Program-made: the position numbers and the translations under genes
Source of the DNA: an uncultured Erysipelotrichaceae bacterium
GTDB taxonomy: Bacteria; Bacillota_I; Bacilli_A; RF39; UBA660
DNA: 41,139 bases
Direction: 5' to 3'
Assembly: GCA_902797995.1 (NCBI GenBank)
Contig: CADBUX010000008.1
Span: 1-41,139, forward strand
Shown: one piece after another, positions 4,769 to 29,739 of the stretch
Numbering within the stretch: the stretch's first letter is position 1
Layout of the letters: each line of letters opens with the position of its first letter
The notes under the pieces: model-generated
What the model was told of the DNA's origin: nothing
Seen by the model: the letters and a program-made list of their open reading frames with translations, nothing else
The model's database searches: none

Positions 4769-4809
4769 AAAAAAGCAAATAATTATTTTTTAGTTTTATT
4801 TGCTTTTTT
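4769..4809 (-). terminator. Terminator overlapping the helicase 3' end
   Basis: Arms AAAAAAGCAAATAA and TTATTTGCTTTTTT form a 14-bp stem. The upstream arm (minus strand) contains the last codons of the helicase gene, and the downstream arm supplies a U-rich tail. Confidence 0.6.
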
Positions 4810-7086
4810 TACATTTGATTCTTCTTTTATATTTTTAACATTAGATACTTTTTTCCTGTTTGTTACTGTCCAATCTCCCAAAGCATCTAGTTTTGCTTTC
4901 CTTCTGTCTGATAATTTTTCATTTTTGCATAATTGTTTTTGCCTACTCAACCATTTACCTAATCTTTGACCATTTTGTGGTGGGAATTTCCCATGATGGT
5001 TTTCTACATATTGTTTTAATAATCTATATTTTTCGTCCCATTCTTCTTCATTTTTTATGGCTTCACAACTTATTAACCAATTTCCTAATTCATCTAGTTT
5101 CTCTTTTCTTTCTTTACTTAACCCTTCGTTTTTGTATGCTTGTTTTTGGTTACTTAACCAGCTTCCTATTATTGGTTCTTGATGAGGTGGAAATTGTCCA
5201 TTATGGCTCTCTATATATTGTTTTAATAGTTCATATTTTTCGCTCCATTGCTCTCCATGTTTACCTTTTAACCAATCTCCTAATGCGTCTAACTTTATTT
5301 TTCGTCTTTCGCTTAATTCTTTATTTTTGTATAATTGTTTTTGATGAATAAACCACGTTCCTATTTCTGGTTCTTGCTCTACTGGAAATTTTTCATTATG
5401 GCTTTCAACATACTCTTTTAATAACTCATATTTTTGGTCCCATTGTTCATCTTCTTTTTGATTTCTATAACTTGTTAACCAATCTCCTAGTTTATCTAGT
5501 TTTTCTTTTTTTTCTTTACTTAATTCTCCTTTTTTGTATTTTTCTTTTTGCCAAATTAACCAGTTCCCTATTATTGGCTCTCTGTTTTGCGGAAGTTTTC
5601 CATTATGGTTTTCAACATACTCTTTTAATAATTCATATTTTTTGTCCCATTGTTCATCTTCTTTTTGACTTCTATAGCTTGTTAACCAATCTCCTAATTC
5701 ATTTAGTTTGTCTTTTCTTTCTTTACTTAATTCTCTTTTTTTGTATAATTGTTTTTGTCTATCTAACCAATTACCTATTATTGGTTCGCTCATAGGTGGA
5801 AACATTCCATTATGGTTTTCGACATATTGTTTTAATAATTCATATTTTTCATTCCAACCATATGTTGCATTTATATCAAGTTCTTTTATTAATATTGATA
5901 TATTTTTATAATCATCTATTATTTTAAATGTTTCTTCCATTCTTTGTATTTCTTTTTTAGGTTTATTAGATTTTTCCATTATTTTTATAACCGTATCTCT
6001 TAAAAGTTCTATATCTTTTAAACATTCTATGTTGTTTACTACATCAAATACTAACGGTTCGTGTTTTTTTCCGGTTGTTAAAGCCCTACCTAATTGTTGT
6101 TGGTATAGAATTGGAGATGATGTTGGTCTTAACATAATAACTCCATCTATATCATTAACATGTACTCCTTCGTTTAACATTCCTACTGAATATAGCAGTT
6201 TTAAATTATCGTTTTTAATATAATGAAATCTATCTAATGTATACTTATTATGATCTTCATCTTCTAGAGAGTGCATGTAGTGTGTTTCTATATTTTTATT
6301 TATTTGTTTAAACCAATTATTTGCTTCATCTTTCATTTCTTCTAGGTGATTTATATCTCTACAAAATACTAAATATTTTCCATTTGCTTTAGTCATATAT
6401 TTTTTAAATATATCTTCTATGTTTTCGGCATTTTCTATTGTTCTTTTGGCTAATTTTAATTCTTCTTCAAGCTCTTTTTGTCTTTCTTTGTCCGTTATTT
6501 TAGATATTTTTTCTTCTATTTTTTCTATTTCTTCTTTAAATGAATAAATAGCATTTATATATGTTGGAGGAGGAAGTATTCCTTCTGCAATTGCTTTTGG
6601 AAGGGTTATATGGCTTGCCACATTGCCACCAAATATTTCATCTGACATATCTCTATTTCTATTTAAATACCTTACAGGTGTTGCAGTTAATCCTAGAACT
6701 TTTGATTCTTTATTATTATCTAAGAACCTTTTTACCGCTTCTCCCCACTTTGGAGCGCCTGCTCTATGAAATTCATCTAAAACTATTAAGTCTGTTTTCA
6801 TATCGTTATTATGTAGTAATGATGAGTATGTTACTATTTTTAAATTAGGAAAGTCTTCTAAACTTAGATCGTTATCTCTTATAGTTCTTTCTAACTGATC
6901 TTTTATTGCTAGATGAGATGTTACATAAATTGCTTTTTTGTCTTTATTATCAAAAAGCCATTTTAAAGCTATATAACTTTTTCCCGTTCCTGTAGGATGA
7001 ATAATAGCACATCTATCTGTTTCCTTAAACATTTCTTTTGTTTTTTCATATGCTATTTCATTGTGTTTGTATAGTTCTATCTCCAT
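4783..7086 (-). CDS. Superfamily II DEAD/DEAH-type helicase with five helicase-associated (HA) repeats
   Basis: A 767-aa protein. Residues 1-400 are an SF2 helicase core: Walker A PTGTGKS (31-37), Walker B-type DEFH (104-107), motif III-like GLTATP (132-137), and motif VI QLGRAL (331-336) followed by a helicase C-terminal fold. From Trp411 to about residue 745 there are five tandem repeats of 65-70 aa. Each begins W-x-x-K-Y-x-L-L-K and continues with an IGxW-LxxQK core and KLxxLGxW, as in the helicase-associated (HA, PF03457-type) domain. The C-terminal tail is Lys-rich. It is a single-gene unit divergent from murI, with no nuclease, methylase or other defence partner beside it. The substrate is unknown; the HA repeats probably bind nucleic acid. 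Start context is GAGGAGTGTTAAT-ATG. Confidence 0.85.
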   Translation of the reverse strand: MEIELYKHNEIAYEKTKEMFKETDRCAIIHPTGTGKSYIALKWLFDNKDKKAIYVTSHLAIKDQLERTIRDNDLSLEDFPNLKIVTYSSLLHNNDMKTDLIVLDEFHRAGAPKWGEAVKRFLDNNKESKVLGLTATPVRYLNRNRDMSDEIFGGNVASHITLPKAIAEGILPPPTYINAIYSFKEEIEKIEEKISKITDKERQKELEEELKLAKRTIENAENIEDIFKKYMTKANGKYLVFCRDINHLEEMKDEANNWFKQINKNIETHYMHSLEDEDHNKYTLDRFHYIKNDNLKLLYSVGMLNEGVHVNDIDGVIMLRPTSSPILYQQQLGRALTTGKKHEPLVFDVVNNIECLKDIELLRDTVIKIMEKSNKPKKEIQRMEETFKIIDDYKNISILIKELDINATYGWNEKYELLKQYVENHNGMFPPMSEPIIGNWLDRQKQLYKKRELSKERKDKLNELGDWLTSYRSQKEDEQWDKKYELLKEYVENHNGKLPQNREPIIGNWLIWQKEKYKKGELSKEKKEKLDKLGDWLTSYRNQKEDEQWDQKYELLKEYVESHNEKFPVEQEPEIGTWFIHQKQLYKNKELSERRKIKLDALGDWLKGKHGEQWSEKYELLKQYIESHNGQFPPHQEPIIGSWLSNQKQAYKNEGLSKERKEKLDELGNWLISCEAIKNEEEWDEKYRLLKQYVENHHGKFPPQNGQRLGKWLSRQKQLCKNEKLSDRRKAKLDALGDWTVTNRKKVSNVKNIKEESNVKKANKTKK
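4852..5856 (-). repeat. Five tandem HA-domain repeats encoded in the helicase gene
   Basis: Repeats start at Trp residues 411, 480, 549, 614 and 683 (DNA about 5856, 5649, 5442, 5247 and 5040). The shared core is KYELLKQYVENHNG-x-FP ... EPIIGNWLxxQKQLYKN ... LSxERKxKLDxLGDW. Repeats 1-3 are closest to each other. The fifth has the most divergent core (QRLGKW replaces EPIIGNW). Confidence 0.85.
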
Positions 7087-7914: not shown

Positions 7915-8497
7915 ATCTTGTTTTAACATTGTTATCTTCATCGAACTTAACATCTAAGTATTTTTTACTTGATAGGTAATCACACATATGGACAAAGAAT
8001 TCATATTTATCACTTGGTTTAGGAAGTTCTATATCACTGTAATGGCTTTTATTCCACTGTCCCATATGGGAACTTATTACTCTTTTTAATAATTCTATTT
8101 CTTCTTTGGTTAATTCTGTTTTATCTTTGTTTTCTTCTATAAAAGATGCTGCAAGAAGAGGATGATCAAATCTAGTATATCTTTCCTCAGGGACTCCTAA
8201 TTTTTGAGTATCATGAAACATTATTGAAAGTAGTAGTAAATCTTTTTCATCACTAGTGAATAGACTATTTGTATATTCTAGTGATAATACTTCTTTTCCT
8301 ATTCTTACTGCTACTTTTGTATGTCTTAGAAGACCTCCATCACCTTGTGAAAAGCTCGGATGATATTTCCCTGTTGAAGATGCAGAAACTTTAAAGAAAT
8401 AATCTGGTACCAATTCTAAGAGATTTTCTGCACTTTTTCTTATTCTTTCATTTTTTATATATTCTAATTCTTGTTTAAATACTTCTTTTTTATTCAT
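7913..8497 (-). CDS. HD-domain metal-dependent phosphohydrolase
   Basis: A 194-aa soluble protein with the HD-superfamily metal-ligand pattern: His59 (LRHTKVA), His95-Asp96 (MFHDTQK) and the distal Asp173 (CDYLSS). Additional histidines at 112 (DHPLLA) and 144 (SSHMGQW) also fit the fold. Such proteins hydrolyse phosphomonoesters or phosphodiesters of nucleotides or nucleic acids; the substrate is not evident here. It is last in the uvrB-DUF1287-HD operon, 7 nt after the preceding gene, with AGGTGT as ribosome site. Confidence 0.8.
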   Translation of the reverse strand: MNKKEVFKQELEYIKNERIRKSAENLLELVPDYFFKVSASSTGKYHPSFSQGDGGLLRHTKVAVRIGKEVLSLEYTNSLFTSDEKDLLLLSIMFHDTQKLGVPEERYTRFDHPLLAASFIEENKDKTELTKEEIELLKRVISSHMGQWNKSHYSDIELPKPSDKYEFFVHMCDYLSSKKYLDVKFDEDNNVKTR

Positions 8498-8504
8498 ATT
8501 ACAC

Positions 8505-9260
8505 CTAACTATCTATTAATTCTTGCAATTTTTTACTATATTCAAATCTATAGTGGCCTGTTATTTTCATGTCTGTTTTTTCTAAACGGTTTTCTTCTTT
8601 CACTTTTTGTTTTTCATCTCTATTTTGAATTAAGTAAGGAACTCCATCTATGGTATATTTATCTGAAACCATGGCTATATGATCAGAATCATCAAATGTC
8701 AATATGTCTCCAGGAAGAAACTGTCCAATATTATACATATCTGTATCTAAGACTTTAGCATAACGCATAAAGAATGTTTCTTGCACATATACTCTTCTAA
8801 AATTGATATTTGAATCAATTGTATCTATATGATACTTTTTTCTGTTATTTCTTATATCTTTATCTATCATATCTTTTAAGTTATATCCTGCGTTTTTAAG
8901 AGCATACCATATTAGATCAGTACAAACTCCTTCTTTTTCTACTGGAGGATAGCCTCCATCATAATACTCATTTTTATATTTTGGATTAAAATCTGCATAC
9001 TGTTTTTCACCTTCGAAGATATCTGTATAATCATCTTTACCATTCTTATTATAGTCTGTGTTACTTACTGGAAATGCAAAACCAAAATCAGATATATTGT
9101 AATACTCTTTTTTTTCTTCAATTGGTGTTAGATCTTCATTATAGGTAAAGTAATATTCTGCTGCTTGCGCTGCTACTACAACTATTAGAATTATTGATAT
9201 TACTACTATCAGTCTTGTTAGTTTTTCTTTTACTTTTTTCTTTAATCTCCTTTTTGCCAC
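8505..9260 (-). CDS. DUF1287 family membrane-anchored protein
   Basis: A 251-aa protein with a basic N-terminus and one TM segment (about residues 14-34), so the bulk is probably extracellular. The domain has the DUF1287 look: YYDGGYPP, then GVCTDLIWYALKNAGY with a conserved Cys, an HIDTIDSNINFRR segment, and late DSDHIAMVSD. This is the Cys/His arrangement of an NlpC/P60-like papain fold, suggesting a cell-wall hydrolase or related role; that function is inferred. The start is GTG at 9260, preceded by GAGGG. It is 12 nt downstream of uvrB in the same operon. Confidence 0.75.
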   Translation of the reverse strand: MAKRRLKKKVKEKLTRLIVVISIILIVVVAAQAAEYYFTYNEDLTPIEEKKEYYNISDFGFAFPVSNTDYNKNGKDDYTDIFEGEKQYADFNPKYKNEYYDGGYPPVEKEGVCTDLIWYALKNAGYNLKDMIDKDIRNNRKKYHIDTIDSNINFRRVYVQETFFMRYAKVLDTDMYNIGQFLPGDILTFDDSDHIAMVSDKYTIDGVPYLIQNRDEKQKVKEENRLEKTDMKITGHYRFEYSKKLQELIDS

Positions 9261-9272
9261 TTATATCCCTCA

Positions 9273-11234
9273 CTATTTTGATTTTAGTTCGAATAATATG
9301 TCTCTTAACTCCATTGCACGTTCAAAGTCTAATTCTTTAGCTGCTTTTCTCATTTCTTCTTCGATTGTCTCTAGACTTGCTATACTATCAATATTAATTA
9401 TATCATCTTTTTTAGATTTTTCAATTTTTTCAAGGTTTTCTTCATCGTTGTTAGATATTAATTCTCTTATTTCTTTGGCGATTGTTTTAGGAACTATATG
9501 ATGTTCTTTATTATATTCTTCTTGTATACTTCTTCTTCTAGCTGTTTCATCAATTGCTTTTTGCATGCTATCTGTAACAGTATCAGCATACATGATAACA
9601 TGACCACTAGCGTTTCTGGCACATCTTCCTATTGTTTGGATTAGGCTTCGTTCACTTCTTAGAAAACCTTCTTTGTCAGCATCAAGTATTGCTATTAGAC
9701 TCACTTCAGGAATATCGAGTCCTTCTCTTAAAAGGTTAATTCCTACAACACAATCATATTTACCCATTCTTAGTTCCCTTATTATTTTTAATCTTTCTAA
9801 TGATTTAATTTCAGAGTGAAGATAGGCTACTTTTATGTCTAATTCTTTTAAATACTTAGTTAATTCTTCACTCATTCTTATAGTAAGAGTAGTAATAAGA
9901 ACTCTTTCGTTCTTTTCAGTTCTTTTTCTTATTTCTCCGATTAGGTCATCTATTTGCCCTTCGGTTTTTCTTATTTCTATTGTTGGATCAAGTAGTCCTG
10001 TTGGTCTTATTATTTGATCAACTTTATTTTCAGCACGCTCTAATTCATAATCTCCAGGAGTTGCTGATACATAAATGATTTGATCTGTTTTCTTTTCAAA
10101 TTCTTCAAATTTAAGTGGTCTATTATCTAGAGCGCTTGGAAGTCTAAATCCGTAGTCTACAAGCGTTGTCTTTCTGGCTCTATCACCATTATACATAGCA
10201 CGTACTTGAGGAAGAGTTACATGTGATTCATCTATTACTAGAAGATAATCATCTCCAAAAAAGTCCATTAAAGTTGTTGGCGTTTCTCCAGCTTTCCTAC
10301 CACTTAAATGACGAGAATAGTTTTCAACACCACTACAGAATCCTGTTTCTGTAAGCATTTCTATGTCATAATTTGTTCTTTGTTCTAGGCGCTGTGCTTC
10401 AAGAAGTTTATTTTGTGATTTTAATTCTTCTAGACGATCTTTTAATTCTTCTTTGATTGTTTCTATTGCTTTTTTCATTTTTCCTTCACTTGTTACGAAA
10501 TGCGATGCCGGAAATATTGTTATATTTTTTATTACTCTTTCTACTTTTCCTGTTAAAGAATCTATTTCTGAAATTCTATCTATTTCATCTCCGAAAAATT
10601 CTATTCTTATTCCGTTTCTATTTTCAGAAGTTGGTATTATTTCTAGAACATCTCCACGTACTCTAAAAGTACCCCGTTTAAAATCGTGATCATTTCTTTC
10701 ATATAGCATTTCAATTAATTTTTTCATTACTTTGTTTCTTTCTACTTCTTCTCCAGTTGTTAGGGTGATTGTGTTATTTTTATATTCTTCTACTTCTCCG
10801 ATACCATAGATGCATGAAACAGATGCTACTACAATAACATCATCATGTGATAAAAGTGCACTTGTTGCTGCATGTCTTAACTGATCTATTTCATCATTTA
10901 TCGATGAATCTTTTTCAATATAGGTATCCGTTCCTGGAATGTAAGCTTCAGGTTGGTAATAGTCATAATATGATATGAAAAATTCAACTTTATTATTAGG
11001 AAATAGTTCTTTTAATTCGGAATACAGTTGACCTGCTAAAGTCTTATTGTGAGCAAGCACTAATGTCTTTTTACCTGTTTCTTTTATAACATTGGCTATA
11101 GTAAATGTCTTTCCTGTTCCTGTTGCACCCAAAAGAACTTGGTGTTTTTTACCTTCATTTATGCCTTTTACAAGGCTTTCTATTGCCTGTGGTTGATCAC
11201 CACTTGGTTTATATTTAGATACTAAATCAAACAT
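9273..11234 (-). CDS. uvrB: Excinuclease ABC subunit B
   Basis: A 653-aa damage-verification helicase of nucleotide excision repair. It shows Walker A GATGTGKT (36-43), the beta-hairpin [10 protein letters not shown] that clamps DNA, the DEAD-like DESH box, motif [11 protein letters not shown], and a C-terminal UVR motif that contacts UvrA/UvrC (last about 35 residues, [20 protein letters not shown]). Its length is typical. Ribosome site is AAAAGGAGG. Unlike uvrA, no recognisable SOS box lies in the 85 nt upstream; a TATAAT is present about 35 nt before the start. It heads an operon with DUF1287 and HD genes. Confidence 0.97.
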
Positions 11235-16769: not shown

Positions 16770-16841
16770 TTATGTATAAAAAACGGATATTTGTAATATG
16801 AAAATAATAGAAGTATATTAATTGTGAAAGGAGGAATTTTA

Positions 16842-17171
16842 ATGTTAAAGGAAGAATTTAAAAAAGAACAACCAAGGCATCTAGAAAGAAAGGTTGAACC
16901 AAAATCGGTAAGAAAAGAAGAACATCCAAAACATTCAGAAAGAGAGGTTGAACCAAAATTAATAAAAAAAGAAGAACACCCAAAACATCATAAACATATT
17001 CCTGAAGAAATTGAAAGACATTTATTACCATTTCAAGAAGAATTAGAGATAATGATCAACTTATGTGGAAATAAAAAGGAGCTTATAGATGTTCTAAACC
17101 GCATCAATCACTTAATTGTTGATGCACCAAGAGAAATCAATAGTGAAGTTAAAGTGAAAAAATTAAAATAA
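16842..17171 (+). CDS. Small charged protein with tandem Lys/Glu/His-rich repeat
   Basis: A 109-aa protein not recognised as a known family. The ATG at 16842 has a perfect AAAGGAGG (16827-16834), so the upstream GTG at 16824 is rejected. The N-terminal 55 residues contain two copies of an 18-residue unit (R-K/E-VEPK-x-x-x-KEEHPKH), highly charged and probably disordered. The C-terminal half (IPEEIERHLLPFQEELEIM...) looks helical, with a single Cys. No signal peptide or TM. It is first in a five-gene operon ending with a permease, 21 nt before another His-rich small protein. Metal binding is possible but unproven. Confidence 0.65.
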   Translation: MLKEEFKKEQPRHLERKVEPKSVRKEEHPKHSEREVEPKLIKKEEHPKHHKHIPEEIERHLLPFQEELEIMINLCGNKKELIDVLNRINHLIVDAPREINSEVKVKKLK

Positions 17172-17192
17172 AAAGTGAAGGGAGAATATTAT

Positions 17193-17528
17193 ATGGAAGA
17201 TAAAAAAATCAATGATGAAAAATTGAGAAAATTTGAAGAATTGGTAGACAGACTTGAAAAAATAAGTGAAGAGAAAACTCACCAACATCCACATCATCCG
17301 GAGGGACCACATCCAAAACATCCACATCCACCAATTCCACCACATGAAAGAAAAGATTTTAAAATAGATTTTTCGAATGATAAAGAATTATTAGAAAATA
17401 TTTTTGGTGATGAAGACACAACAAAAGCAGTAATTGATGTAATCACAATTAGCCCAACTGAAATACAAATAGTTTTAAAAGTAGTTATTGATTTATATAA
17501 CAAAGTTAATGATTCTAAAGGAGAATAA
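17193..17528 (+). CDS. Small protein with a His/Pro-rich central segment
   Basis: A 111-aa protein not recognised as a known family. The ATG at 17193 has AAGGGAG (17178-17184); the in-frame GTG at 17175 precedes that site. It has an N-terminal charged helix (DEKLRKFEELVDRLEKI), then about 25 residues dominated by His and Pro (HQHPHHPEGPHPKHPHPP), then a C-terminal helical domain (about 60-111). The His/Pro stretch resembles metal-storage tracts of nickel, zinc or copper chaperones. It is the second gene of the LysR-linked operon; the permease downstream could move the bound ion or an organic anion. Confidence 0.65.
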   Translation: MEDKKINDEKLRKFEELVDRLEKISEEKTHQHPHHPEGPHPKHPHPPIPPHERKDFKIDFSNDKELLENIFGDEDTTKAVIDVITISPTEIQIVLKVVIDLYNKVNDSKGE

Positions 17529-19784: not shown

Positions 19785-20045
19785 ATGTATAACTTACAAG
19801 ATGCACTTTATGCTGCCAATAAACTTGGTATTACTTTTGATAAATTCACTGAATTAGAGTTTTTAGATGGAATAAATATAGAAACGGAACATGGCTTTAT
19901 AAATACTATGACAAATGTAACAAATAATGACTTGCTTGCAACTGCGAAAATTGCTTTAGCACATTTGAACGAATTTCCTAATTACTATAACAAAGAATAT
20001 GGATTAAAAGTATTTGAAGAGTTTCTTAAAACTAAATTACAGTAA
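19785..20045 (+). CDS. DUF5661-like small protein
   Basis: An 86-aa cytosolic protein. The ATG is preceded by GGTGAT at 6-nt spacing. The pattern A-x-x-LGI-x-FDKFTxLEFLDGINIETEHG, then TNVTNNDLLATAKIALAHLNEFPNYY, resembles the conserved DUF5661 family as I remember it. Function is unknown. It is a single gene just outside the right direct repeat, convergent with the agr-like operon, with a hairpin between them. Confidence 0.6.
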   Translation: MYNLQDALYAANKLGITFDKFTELEFLDGINIETEHGFINTMTNVTNNDLLATAKIALAHLNEFPNYYNKEYGLKVFEEFLKTKLQ

Positions 20046-20052
20046 ATAAAAA

Positions 20053-20074
20053 ATATTCTACAAGCGTAGAATAT
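20053..20074. terminator. Terminator of the agr-like operon
   Basis: ATATTCTAC-AAGC-GTAGAATAT. On the minus strand it is followed by TTTTTTATTT, so it mainly serves the minus-strand operon; it may also stop the plus-strand gene. Confidence 0.65.
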
Positions 20075-20081
20075 GTTCCTT

Positions 20082-20330
20082 TTATGATATCAATTTTATA
20101 AATGCTTCTTTGTGAAAGTTATTTAAACTTCTCACTGAATAATACCTTTGTGGTTTTCCATATTTTGAAAAATCCATGTTGTATGATATGTATGCTAAAC
20201 TTTGTTTTTTCCAATATATTCTTAGTATTATTTCCATTTCATATCCATTTAAGCCTTTTTCTCTACATAACTCTATAAGATTATCTTTGTTAGTAGGCAG
20301 TGTCATTAATGCTTTTAATCTTCTTGGCAT
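20082..20330 (-). CDS. Small HTH-like protein (sigma-70 region 4-like) in the agr-like operon
   Basis: An 82-aa basic protein. Residues 17-60 (DNLIELCREKGLNGYEMEI, then LRIYWKKQSLAYISYNM) have the spacing of a sigma region 4/HTH segment: a helix, then a Y/W-KK-x-S turn and a recognition-helix-like stretch, ending with SVRSLNNFHKEAFIKL. This is a structural impression, not a family identification. It starts inside the 3' end of the AgrB-like gene (16-nt overlap) with AAAGGATG as ribosome site, so it is translationally linked. It could be the transcriptional output of the locus, which has no response regulator. Confidence 0.6.
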   Translation of the reverse strand: MPRRLKALMTLPTNKDNLIELCREKGLNGYEMEIILRIYWKKQSLAYISYNMDFSKYGKPQRYYSVRSLNNFHKEAFIKLIS

Positions 20331-20770
20331 TTGTCTTCATCCTTTACTACTATGTAATTCATATATATAGCAAGCATACTTCCTAACAATACACATAAGA
20401 ATACACTTATATATATACTTGGTATAAATTTAGTAATTATGAAAAATATTGTCCACGTGAATGTAGTACATGTTATTGTAGAGTTTAAATGGAATGTTTC
20501 TCCTAAAAACGATCTCACAAAGAAAAATCCTACTAAGAAAAATGATAATTCTGCAAATGCATCATTAAAGTATGCTATTACAAATACTCCTGCTGTTTGA
20601 AGCAATTCAAGCGGTATTGTTATCCCATAGAATATAATGTTTTCTAATATTTTTTCTAACTTAGCTGCTCTTTCTTGAGCATAGTATTCTATAGATTCAG
20701 TATTGTTAAACCATATACCATTTTTTCTTTTTCTCTTTTTTCCTTTATCATTCTCTTTTTTATTTTTCAT
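20315..20770 (-). CDS. agrB: AgrB-like membrane endopeptidase
   Basis: A 151-aa protein. After a Lys/Arg-rich N-terminus (1-18) and an amphipathic AQERAAKLEKILE segment come about four hydrophobic segments. The catalytic layout of AgrB is visible: Arg86, Gly90, His94 and Cys101, i.e. V-R-S-F-L-G-E-T-F-H-x6-C, with the same His-to-Cys distance as Staphylococcus aureus AgrB His77/Cys84. AgrB cleaves the C-terminal part of an AgrD propeptide and forms a thiolactone. The protein is shorter than usual (about 190-200 aa), lacking part of the C-terminal TM region. It has GGAGG before its ATG and follows a 34-codon Cys-containing peptide gene, the position expected for agrD. Confidence 0.65.
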   Translation of the reverse strand: MKNKKENDKGKKRKRKNGIWFNNTESIEYYAQERAAKLEKILENIIFYGITIPLELLQTAGVFVIAYFNDAFAELSFFLVGFFFVRSFLGETFHLNSTITCTTFTWTIFFIITKFIPSIYISVFLCVLLGSMLAIYMNYIVVKDEDKCQED

Positions 20771-20780
20771 ACTTCCTCCG

Positions 20781-20813
20781 TAAAATAGACAAGGGCCCCT
20801 TTTATCTATTTTA
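20781..20813 (-). promoter_or_regulatory. Intercistronic hairpin between peptide and AgrB-like genes
   Basis: Outer arms TAAAATAGA/TCTATTTTA (9 bp) enclose an inner AAGG/CCTT stem. There is no long U run, so it is more likely an mRNA stability or attenuation element that raises peptide over protease than a full terminator. Confidence 0.5.
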
Positions 20814-20827
20814 TTCTTTATATTTGC

Positions 20828-20932
20828 TTATTTAACTGCTTTTGCTACTTTTTTTGCTAGTTTTTTTGCTAGTTGTCCTTCTTTGTTGAATTTGCCCCAC
20901 CATAGCCAGCAAGTTCCTTGTCCTGGTAACAT
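20828..20932 (-). CDS. 34-aa Cys/Trp peptide, candidate signalling propeptide or bacteriocin
   Basis: Starts MLPGQGTCWLWW and, after a GKFNKEG hinge, ends QLAKKLAKKVAKAVK. ATG at 20932 has AAAGGAG eight nt upstream. Residues 8-12 are Cys plus four residues (CWLWW), exactly the ring size of staphylococcal autoinducing peptides, and the AgrB-like protease follows. The C-terminal 15 residues form a strongly amphipathic Lys/Ala/Leu helix. The order is reversed relative to AgrD, where the helix is N-terminal and the tail acidic. The whole gene but its last 4 nt is read in another frame as the tail of the upstream membrane protein. A leaderless Trp/Lys-rich bacteriocin is the alternative. Confidence 0.65.
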   Translation of the reverse strand: MLPGQGTCWLWWGKFNKEGQLAKKLAKKVAKAVK

Positions 20933-21524
20933 TGTCTTCACTCCTTTTATTTAAATATATTTCTTTTACTAAAATAATTATTGCTATAATTATAAAGTAG
21001 TCAAATGATAATAGGCTTTTTGTTGTATAATTTAATTTTGAATAATCTATAAATCTAACTTTATAAAAATATGCTATTCCCTGTACGACTGTATTAATTG
21101 TTAAGGCTATAACTCCATATGCCATATATTTGTACTGCTTTTCTGAATAAAAATAGCAAAAGACTATAATCCATCCAATTATAAATATATGCATAATGAG
21201 CGGAGATAAGAATAATGATAGGATTATATTTATAGCCAGATATAACAAAGCATATTTAAATATGTTTTTTGCTTCTTTTGCTCTAAACACCAACAATATA
21301 GTCGAATAAAAATTTAATATTAGTATTATCCAATTTGTTAAATACTCTAAAACTATATTATATTTAAAACTTTTGATATTATTATATGTAACTGCATAAT
21401 ATGGAAAACCTATACTTTCCATAGCTGTATTAAATATTATCAATGTAACCATTATTATTAGTAACCACACTATGACTTTTGCTATTTTTTCGTTAACCCC
21501 TAACCATTTAACAAAATCTTTCAT
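20832..21524 (-). CDS. Six-TM membrane protein heading the agr-like operon
   Basis: A 230-aa protein with about six hydrophobic helices (roughly 14-35, 61-78, 89-105, 107-127, 133-155 and 171-193). The first 190 residues resemble in size and topology the sensor half of AgrC-type kinases, but no kinase domain follows. The last 30 residues are Arg/Lys/Ser/Thr-rich (VTRTRNLLAMVGQIQQ, then RTTSKKTSKKSSKSS) and are produced by reading the peptide gene in a second frame. Function is unrecognised: receptor, immunity protein and transporter partner are all possible. The ribosome site is GAGGTAG, 9 nt from ATG. Confidence 0.65.
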   Translation of the reverse strand: MKDFVKWLGVNEKIAKVIVWLLIIMVTLIIFNTAMESIGFPYYAVTYNNIKSFKYNIVLEYLTNWIILILNFYSTILLVFRAKEAKNIFKYALLYLAINIILSLFLSPLIMHIFIIGWIIVFCYFYSEKQYKYMAYGVIALTINTVVQGIAYFYKVRFIDYSKLNYTTKSLLSFDYFIIIAIIILVKEIYLNKRSEDNVTRTRNLLAMVGQIQQRRTTSKKTSKKSSKSS

Positions 21525-21542: not shown

Positions 21543-21591
21543 ATTATATCTTATTTTTATTCATTTTAAACGCAACTGTTACGCAAATTGG
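21543..21591 (-). promoter_or_regulatory. Promoter of the agr-like operon with phased direct repeat
   Basis: On the minus strand -10 TATAAT (21543-21548) has no good -35. Instead TTGCGT occurs twice at an 11-bp period (21570-21575 and 21581-21586), ending at the -35 position, with ACAGTTGCG resembling the Agr/LytTR repeat core ACAGTTAAG. An inverted repeat AATTGG/CCAATT (21586-21606) lies beside it. The arrangement suggests an activator-dependent promoter. Confidence 0.5.
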
Positions 21592-21646
21592 TAATTTTTT
21601 CCAATTCTTAGTTTAATTTTATCATTTTTATTTATTATTTGTATAT

Positions 21647-27819: not shown

Positions 27820-29739
27820 TTAACTGATTTTTTCGTATTTTCCAGTATATTTGTATCCTTGATTAATTAATGATGCTTCATTACTACTGTAAGCCCACGC
27901 TATATATCTTTTTCTTTGTATCCATGCTTCTTGTGTTATAGTACGTGTCTTTCTGTGATAGTAATATGTTTTCTTTTCTTTTTCTACTTTATTTGTTACA
28001 TATCCTGCAAATGTTGATTGTTTTCCATAAATTGGGATTTTCTTTGTAACAACATTACTACATACTGCACTTACTGTTGAATAACTTGATGATGTTGAAG
28101 TAGTGGTTGCAGTACCAGCGTTTCTTGTATAAACATCAAAGATATAATATGGTTTTAGTGAACATGTACTTGTACAATAATCATAATTCATACCAATATA
28201 TACATATTTTTTAGTATTTGAACTCGATGGTTTTGATGACGTTGTAATTCTTCCTGATCTTGTCCAACCACCAGTGGCAGATCCTGTTGTTTTATAGGTT
28301 GTATTTGTGACACTATCAATATAATATGTATAACCATCACACGCATATTGGGTTTTATAGCCTAATAGCTTATCATATGTTACGTTGAATATTGGCTGAC
28401 TTTTATCTGCTTCCTCAACATAATATTTTGTTAACTTATAACCTAGTTTTTCATTTATTTCTAGTTCATGTGTTCCCCAATTGATGTTATTATTATTTGG
28501 ATTATACTCTATGTTTCCAGACCAATTAGACCACTTACTATATTCAGTTTCATGTTTGATATCTACTACTTTTTCGTATTTATATTTATATATTTCTGGT
28601 TCTGGTGCACTTGTACATTCTTTCTTATATGTTGCTTCGGTTACTACGTTACCTTTTTTACCATAGTATTTTCCATTATATAGTACGCAATAATGTTTTA
28701 CTTCTGGTGTTGTACATTCTTTCTTATATGTTGCTTCGGTTACTACGTTACCTTTTTTACCATAATATTTTCCATTATATAGTACACAATAATGTTTTAC
28801 TTCTGGTGTTTGTTCACATTGTTTTTTGTAATCAGTTTTACTTACTACATTACCATTTTTTCCATAATATTTTCCGTTAAATATACCACAATAGTGTTTT
28901 TCTGGTGTTGGTGTCTTTGTACACTCTTTTGTATAGGTAGATTTGCTTACTACATTACCATTCTTTCCATAATATTTACCGTTATATATTCCACAGTAAT
29001 GTTTAGTTTGTGTTTTTGTACATTCTTTTATATAAGTAGTTTTGCTTACTACTTTACCATTCTTCCCATAATATTTTCCATTATTTATAGTACATATATA
29101 CTTAGTTGCTGGTTTTGTTACTCTGCTAATGATATTTGTATTTGTATTTGTGTTTGTATATGTGTTTGTGTTTTCTTTTACTTGTGTTACAGTTTTCTTT
29201 TCGCATATATCATTTAAACAGTAATTATAACATCCTAAGTAAGAAATAATATAATCTTCTTCGTCATCGCAAGATAGATTTACTTTCATCTTATATTCAT
29301 TACCAGTTTTAGTAACTTCTACATAAGATTTATCTGTATCACACATTTTACCATTTTTATCTTTTATGGATAATAGGAGTTTCTTGTCTAACATTTCTCC
29401 TAAAGTTAATTTTATTGTTTCACCATCTTGTTTTGGTAATCTATCTGTTGTGAAGTATGCGGTTGCAACTTCTTTCATTGTATTTACGTTATCTCCAAAT
29501 ATTCTATCATATAATGGATTTAATTTTTCTTCAAATGTCTCTGTAAAAGCATCTGATATGCTATCTTTTATTGTGTCTTTTAATCCCGCTTTAGTTGGAA
29601 ATAGCCATAGTAATAAGAATATTAATAGTATTATTAAAATTAATCCTATTAAAAATCTTTTTATATGATAACTTAATGGCATATTGTTATTATTAACATA
29701 TGTAACATTTGGATTAGTATATTCATAATTATTATTCAT
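27820..29739 (-). CDS. Membrane-anchored extracellular protein with five Cys-paired repeats
   Basis: A 639-aa protein. Cytosolic residues 1-27 are Asn-rich, a TM helix spans 28-47, and the remainder is extracellular. Residues about 75-180 form a small Cys-containing domain of the kind seen in pilin-like surface proteins (LPKQDGETIKLTLGEML, then DKNGKMCDTD). After a TNTNTN linker come five repeats of 28 residues, each Cys-x24-Cys with core NGKYYGKxGxVV. The C-terminal third (380-639) is Ser/Thr/Tyr-rich and ends with an AWIQRKRYIAWAYSSNEASL segment. No family recognised. It is 21 nt behind the 691-aa gene and shares its strong promoter. Confidence 0.7.
   Translation of the reverse strand: MNNNYEYTNPNVTYVNNNNMPLSYHIKRFLIGLILIILLIFLLLWLFPTKAGLKDTIKDSISDAFTETFEEKLNPLYDRIFGDNVNTMKEVATAYFTTDRLPKQDGETIKLTLGEMLDKKLLLSIKDKNGKMCDTDKSYVEVTKTGNEYKMKVNLSCDDEEDYIISYLGCYNYCLNDICEKKTVTQVKENTNTYTNTNTNTNIISRVTKPATKYICTINNGKYYGKNGKVVSKTTYIKECTKTQTKHYCGIYNGKYYGKNGNVVSKSTYTKECTKTPTPEKHYCGIFNGKYYGKNGNVVSKTDYKKQCEQTPEVKHYCVLYNGKYYGKKGNVVTEATYKKECTTPEVKHYCVLYNGKYYGKKGNVVTEATYKKECTSAPEPEIYKYKYEKVVDIKHETEYSKWSNWSGNIEYNPNNNNINWGTHELEINEKLGYKLTKYYVEEADKSQPIFNVTYDKLLGYKTQYACDGYTYYIDSVTNTTYKTTGSATGGWTRSGRITTSSKPSSSNTKKYVYIGMNYDYCTSTCSLKPYYIFDVYTRNAGTATTTSTSSSYSTVSAVCSNVVTKKIPIYGKQSTFAGYVTNKVEKEKKTYYYHRKTRTITQEAWIQRKRYIAWAYSSNEASLINQGYKYTGKYEKIS
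28615..29103 (-). repeat. Five Cys-pair repeats, the last two a 99-bp tandem duplication
   Basis: Repeats correspond to residues about 213-240, 246-273, 281-308, 315-342 and 348-375. Copies 4 and 5 (DNA 28613-28710 and 28712-28809) differ at only two bases over 98, far closer than the other copies, which points to recent unequal exchange. Confidence 0.8.

Follow-up and report, generated by a model that had tools for sequence, protein, structure and literature searches.

Agr is the textbook example of kinase-based peptide quorum sensing in Gram-positive bacteria. In its Staphylococcus type, AgrB carries a His/Cys dyad, the small Cys/Ser precursor has a hydrophobic five-residue core, AgrC is the kinase, and AgrA has a LytTR DNA-binding domain and a phospho-Asp. 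In LytTR Regulatory Systems (LRS), such as HdrRM and BrsRM of S. mutans, a membrane protein keeps a LytTR activator in check, and this activator autoactivates the operon via direct repeats that precede the promoter (PMC6193735). Clostridial agrBD-only loci, such as C. difficile Agr1, consist of two genes, AgrB and AgrD being encoded without linked AgrC or AgrA (PMC8534292). In the Enterococcus faecalis Fsr system (FsrABDC), the peptide is a Ser lactone, fsrD is in frame with the protease gene fsrB, and FsrC is the kinase (PMC7028047).

The locus described here lies in a 41,139-nt contig (the window) of an uncultured Erysipelotrichaceae bacterium with a genome of 1.07 Mb (G000). A sequence-only reading of the window had proposed a compact agr-like operon of four minus-strand genes without kinase or response regulator. 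All four ORFs were present, and the same order was kept in eight genomes (Table 1). The operon has its own promoter. The overlap of the 82-aa gene with the protease gene, also claimed in that reading, was borne out and measures 16 nt. The last ~35 codons of the membrane-protein ORF traverse the peptide gene out of frame, and the Shine-Dalgarno sequence of the peptide gene is AAAGGAG. The hairpin between agrD and agrB may set the agrD:agrB expression ratio; its inverted repeat was visible in several relatives and absent in G002.

Table 1. Features of the four-gene operon and its control elements (window coordinates)
Feature	Position	Strand	Remarks
Membrane protein gene	20832-21524	minus	230 aa, starts MKDFVKWLGVNEK; polytopic, about 6 TM
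agrD-like peptide gene	20828-20932	minus	34 aa, MLPGQGTCWLWWGKFNKEGQLAKKLAKKVAKAVK, ATG at 20932
Predicted ring CWLWW of the 34-aa peptide	20911-20897	minus	
AgrB-type protease gene, shortened	20315-20770	minus	151 aa, His94/Cys101
82-aa helical protein gene	20082-20330	minus	possible sigma-region-4/HTH-like fold
-10 element TATAAT, operon promoter	21543-21548	minus	
Direct repeat TTGCG-TAACAG-TTGCG, putative LytTR operator	21571-21586	minus	
Palindrome TTGGAAAAAATTACCAA, second candidate operator	21588-21604		
GGGCCC-centred RNA hairpin between agrD and agrB	20784-20816	minus	
Intrinsic-terminator-like hairpin, operon end	20045-20073	minus	ATATTCTAC-GCTT-GTAGAATAT-TTTTTT, read from sequence

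Elsewhere in the window, positions 27820-29739 encode a membrane-anchored protein of 639 aa in which a Cys-containing unit (HYCxxYNGKYYGKxGNVV) is repeated in tandem about five times. Positions 4783-7086 encode a helicase with about five W..KYELLK.YVE.H.G..P units of the helicase-associated type, and two neighbouring small proteins rich in His/Lys/Pro are encoded at 16824-17528.

The module shares with Staphylococcus-type agr the AgrB His/Cys dyad, the small Cys/Ser precursor with its hydrophobic five-residue core and the AgrA-type LytTR DNA-binding domain, and it occupies the same chromosomal site as the canonical agr of the same bacterial family. Unlike canonical agr, it has no AgrC kinase, its regulator lacks the phospho-Asp, its AgrB is shorter, its precursor has no amphipathic leader and carries a cationic amphipathic tail where canonical agr has a short, mostly acidic one, and two extra proteins are present. 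On the output side, LRS are the closest precedent. LRS regulators have no receiver, whereas the module LytTR protein keeps a degenerate one; their gene is located upstream of the membrane gene, whereas the module LytTR gene is downstream or unlinked; most LRS membrane proteins carry DUF3021 or DUF2154, neither of which was recognised in the module 6-TM protein; and LRS have no AgrB or AgrD and a different repeat spacing (PMC6193735). Compared with the clostridial two-gene loci, the module is a conserved four-gene unit whose putative operator is common to a receiver-dead LytTR gene (PMC8534292). Fsr resembles it in the Ser-lactone peptide, here predicted, and in the merging of precursor and protease genes, but in the fused modules described below three proteins are joined and the precursor ORF lies inside their gene in another frame (PMC7028047). 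A literature search, with subscription journals mostly outside its coverage, found no such system.

The eight genomes with the four-gene unit belong to one family of small-genome gut Bacilli. They are G000, its congeners G001–G004, G031 and the genomes of loci L061 and L062 (the latter being G157). In L062 and G003 contig ends interrupt the locus, and the membrane-protein gene is therefore incomplete or found on a different contig. Among 147 relatives, the 82-aa protein was found in six, exactly those with the same AgrB; the AgrB search gave additional weak matches in G039 and G110. AgrB and the 82-aa protein are 63–89% identical across genera. The four genes thus co-occur as the sequence-only reading predicted, and the unit is not a chance arrangement, because the order is kept in eight genomes and the 82-aa protein is confined to genomes with its AgrB. 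At least one module genome came from goat omasum, and we infer a gut origin for the whole group. G004 contains the module twice, with 99.8% identity over 1558 bp (L052:6012-7569 and 8212-9769), and the copies flank tmRNA and tRNA-Thr; this duplication may be genuine or may have arisen in assembly. No module was carried by the viral contigs, phages or plasmids that were searched.

The 151-aa protein scored 35.6 bits against the AgrB profile PF04647 (cutoff 23), and the match spanned profile positions 6–119 of 185. Because the match stops there, the window AgrB lacks the C-terminal third. It is shorter than a full-length AgrB domain (~185–200 aa) and than the canonical AgrB proteins of the same family (199–227 aa). 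His94 and Cys101 were aligned and invariant in seven AgrB sequences, so that the claimed AgrB-like protease with its His-x6-Cys pair stood. It is the sole AgrB of the G000 genome.

Homologues of the 34-aa peptide were found in all module loci. The predicted rings of the eight unfused-module peptides are C-W-L-W-W, C-F-L-W-I, S-F-L-W-W, C-W-F-W-F, S-L-L-W-W, C-W-L-W-F, C-L-F-W-F and S-W-L-W-F. In these peptides, 3–8 residues precede the ring, which is followed by [GP] and a cationic amphipathic tail of 21–22 residues. With the peptides of the fused modules included, the ring pattern [CS]-[WFL]-[LFW]-[WFI]-[WIF] was present in 13 of 13, with Cys (n = 5) or Ser (n = 8) at the ring position, followed by [GPA] and an amphipathic tail. 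Cys/Ser alternation at one ring position is expected for (thio)lactones; both the AIP of S. intermedius and GBAP, for instance, are lactones formed with Ser (PMC10482373, PMC7028047). The module leaders have 2–8 residues, whereas those of canonical family AgrDs have 22–26, and the tails have charges of +3 to +7 versus −5 to +1 for the canonical DEP-type short tails. Thus, the module peptides share with AgrD the Cys/Ser and the short hydrophobic core able to form a (thio)lactone, and they lack both its amphipathic leader at the N terminus and its charged C-terminal tail, which is usually acidic. The NCBIfam profile quorum_AgrD (TIGR04223) did not match the compact peptides tested; one canonical family AgrD tested against it scored 37.6 bits. 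As judged from these predicted precursors, the layout is reversed relative to canonical AgrD, with little leader and a cationic amphipathic tail. These results supported an agr-derived, AgrB-processed cyclic peptide as a candidate product.

No AgrC-type kinase (PF14501 at 1e-10) was found in G000–G004 or G031; the same search found it in 59 of the 147 relatives. Two G000 proteins matched PF14501 weakly; by eye, their motifs are HisKA-like, and they are not AgrC-type; HisKA-type kinases thus persist in this genome. The claimed lack of a kinase is therefore right for the AgrC type across the whole G000 genome. The claimed lack of a response regulator is true at the locus but overlooks a receiver-dead LytTR protein encoded elsewhere in G000 (C7:41897-42613). 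With this AgrA-like protein there is a DNA-binding candidate besides the 82-aa protein, which had been put forward as the only one.

The LytTR gene immediately follows the module in G031, L061 and L062; in G000, G001, G002 and G004 the two are unlinked. No LytTR gene was found in G003, a genome that is 79% complete. The LytTR DNA-binding domain was intact (66.5 bits). The phospho-acceptor Asp of the receiver was absent in seven of seven module genomes versus two of the 56 other LytTR response regulators of the family (Fisher p 6.5e-8, with rows that are not phylogenetically independent). The two exceptions have no AgrC beside them, and every response regulator adjoining AgrC retains the phospho-Asp. 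LytTR regulators without the phospho-Asp were seen at two loci that have neither AgrC nor AgrB, L115:6344-7066 (G038) and L157:2563-3294 (G060). Pfam Response_reg matched the canonical regulator and did not match the four pseudo-response regulators tested. In the regulator tree, the module proteins fell into two groups, yet a single clade, and with it one origin, was not rejected (AU p 0.18).

In seven of seven readable unfused promoters, the direct repeat TTGC[GA]-N6-[TC]TGC[GA] begins exactly 38 nt before the -10 element. At the standalone LytTR genes the repeat is inverted and located upstream of a TTTACT-N17-TATACT promoter. Exact TGCG-N7-TGCG occurred at 11 sites in five genomes: six module promoters, three LytTR promoters and two places elsewhere, both in G002. 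The window repeat is the only exact site in G000, whose LytTR promoter has the repeat with one change. The module operon and the LytTR gene therefore have a putative operator in common. A large regulon was considered and rejected, the operator being nearly absent elsewhere in the genomes. The TTGCG repeat was absent from five of five fused loci. The palindrome TTGG-N9-CCAA was present in five of seven unfused promoters, with a single-base variant in one more; G004 and all fused loci lacked it.

The 230-aa membrane protein is a candidate receptor or membrane inhibitor. It matched no Pfam family with confidence, and neither of the membrane-inhibitor domains DUF3021 and DUF2154 was recognised in it. 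The six TM segments of the sequence-only reading are reasonable, although the predicted structure was poor (pLDDT 69) and this model gave no structural match. We considered that it might be a kinase-stripped AgrC sensor, but it had no profile similarity to the AgrC sensor domains of the family. Because no such relation was detectable, the earlier label "sensor-like" is still a guess. The 82-aa protein had no Pfam match. Its AlphaFold 2 model (pLDDT 83) had helices compatible with an HTH, and the best Foldseek matches in the PDB were sigma region 4 and KorA-type HTH domains, none of them significant (E > 1). The model thus supported the proposed HTH-like nature of this protein weakly.

Five of 385 genomes of the order (G039, G352, G197, G387 and G199, in three genera) encode a colinear 6TM::AgrB::82-aa-like fusion of 411–424 aa. 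In hhalign comparisons with the fusions, the membrane protein, homologous to their N-terminal domain, matched with E about 6e-7 and AgrB with 3e-10. The C-terminal domain is, weakly, 82-aa-like (E 2.5e-4 for the G039 protein alone and 0.04 for the five-sequence profile). The fused proteins scored 27.6–34.7 bits against PF04647, and H-x6-C was visible in all five.

In each fusion, where the first domain meets the second, a Shine-Dalgarno sequence and an ATG open a nested ORF of 27–30 codons. The nested ORFs are all in one alternative frame, out of frame with the host. The peptides, which begin MHIPGGSWFIFAKTDF, MHIPNGSWFIFAKETK, MWGGGSLFIFAKETK, MGDKFSWWFFGPTDF and MGSWLFFGPTDF, are reversed precursors like the unfused ones, with Ser at the ring position in five of five. 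In all 10 pairwise alignments, which are not independent of one another, the nested frame scored above the host frame. In codon-shuffled genes, ORF length plus Shine-Dalgarno alone arose in 1–7% each. Length and Shine-Dalgarno are thus weak singly; what decides against a chance origin of the nested ORFs is their position, their motif and a conservation stronger than that of the host frame. The fusions in five related genomes lend support to a physical membrane-regulator unit.

The chromosomal site between mbl-tagO and hpf-secA carries in relatives a canonical response regulator, AgrC and a convergent AgrB-AgrD pair. In G199 this set is present together with a fused module between the regulator and AgrC (L199:3011-7126); its canonical AgrD is MKKLLVSALVAIGSAIGTAATMGCIIFMFDEPEMPESLD, and the LytTR domain of its response regulator is cut short. 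G387 and G197 have the fusion and a kinase without polytopic sensor, and no LytTR gene. The ORFs at L200:6466-7206 and L201:4189-4902 are ~240-aa AgrC-type GHKL kinases without polytopic sensor domain, in genomes without LytTR. In G039 and G352 the fused module has no adjacent kinase, and there is no LytTR gene. A step of the canonical relay is thus lost or damaged in the module genomes examined, at differing points. One site across relatives shows canonical agrBDCA, mixed (G199), fused and kinase-less states, and a possible route from two-component to kinase-free signalling can therefore be traced; the order of events along it is our reconstruction.

On balance we lean slightly towards an agr-derived AIP module whose histidine kinase has been lost and which signals without phosphorylation. 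The shortened AgrB would cut the 29–35-aa precursor where its five-residue core, [CS]-x4, ends, shed the cationic amphipathic tail and close the ring as a thiolactone (Cys) or lactone (Ser). At the membrane, the exported cyclic peptide would be recognised, with the 6-TM protein as the likeliest sensor. The signal would then pass by protein-protein contact, probably via the 82-aa protein, to the LytTR factor, which lacks the usual phosphorylation site. This factor would bind TTGCG-N6-TTGCG and autoactivate the module operon and its own gene. We infer the cleavage, the cyclisation, the identity of the receptor, the role of the 82-aa protein and the direction of regulation. Membrane-to-regulator signalling without a kinase, as first proposed, is the leading idea because no AgrC-type kinase is encoded in the genome; what that proposal missed was the LytTR partner. 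Of known systems, the module comes closest to an LRS with an AIP module of its own. The repeat period counts against the reading given here: it is 11 bp in the module, and published LRS sites are 9-bp repeats 11–12 bp apart (PMC6193735). So do the lack of a recognised membrane-inhibitor domain in the 6-TM protein, the one change in the repeat at the LytTR promoter of G000 and the HisKA-type kinases left in its genome. Moreover, LytTR is not essential to every form of the module, because it is unlinked in the window genus and absent from four fused genomes; the fifth, G199, has the truncated domain.

The absence of LytTR from those four genomes leaves the 82-aa domain as the only regulator candidate at their loci. 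In line with the sequence-only reading, the 82-aa HTH-like protein might itself be the regulator, tethered to the membrane by the 6-TM protein and AgrB, released or switched by the peptide and bound to TTGG-N9-CCAA, with LytTR as an accessory. Its exclusive occurrence with the same AgrB, its covalent joining to the membrane protein in five genomes, the palindrome in most unfused promoters and the HTH-like model fit this proposal. We regard it as rather unlikely, since the HTH assignment is weak, the palindrome is missing in G004 and the fused loci, and the LytTR operator is better conserved and fixed in position. Somewhat easier to entertain, though still doubtful, is a single membrane unit comprising receptor, protease and DNA-binding output, with the precursor nested out of frame and no phosphorylation. 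If true, it would be a distinct class of cyclic-peptide quorum sensing, present as one polypeptide in three genera.

The peptide might instead be sensed by a remaining remote HisKA-type kinase, as proposed for clostridial agrBD-only loci, for which a remote kinase is suspected (PMC8534292). Two HisKA-like kinases are left in G000, but the AgrA-like partner is not phosphorylatable at the usual site in seven of seven genomes, no AgrC-type kinase was found in the unfused module genomes searched, and the two extra proteins are dedicated to the module, so we judge this orphan agrBD arrangement improbable. A bacteriocin, in which AgrB frees a cationic amphipathic helix or a hydrophobic cyclic peptide against competitors and the 6-TM protein confers immunity, would explain the tail charge and its high hydrophobic moment (0.46–0.65), as well as the weak similarity of the 34-aa peptide to the antimicrobial family Cupiennin (E 0.05). 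However, recognition by AgrB or the membrane would equally need a conserved amphipathic-helix tail, the locus has no exporter or classical immunity gene, and the ring pattern of Cys/Ser plus aromatic residues is invariably kept. The putative autoregulatory operator and the LytTR link also fit signalling, and there seems little chance that the peptide is a bacteriocin. It is very improbable that the locus is a decaying canonical agr with drifting ORFs. The lost kinase, the degenerate receiver and the small genomes would suit decay, but AgrB and the 82-aa protein have stayed 63–89% identical between genera, the His/Cys dyad is invariant, G004 has two copies of the module, the nested peptide frames outscore their hosts in every pair, and the promoter architecture is fixed to the base.

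The module is a real, conserved and unusual agr derivative. It adds a reversed precursor layout to the peptides processed by AgrB and offers a natural case of overlapping genes, and the question of how agrBD-only loci signal becomes directly testable. These gut bacteria seem to have rebuilt agr, keeping the cyclic peptide while the kinase and the phosphate relay are gone, which points to a simpler, hitherto undescribed inward path for the signal.
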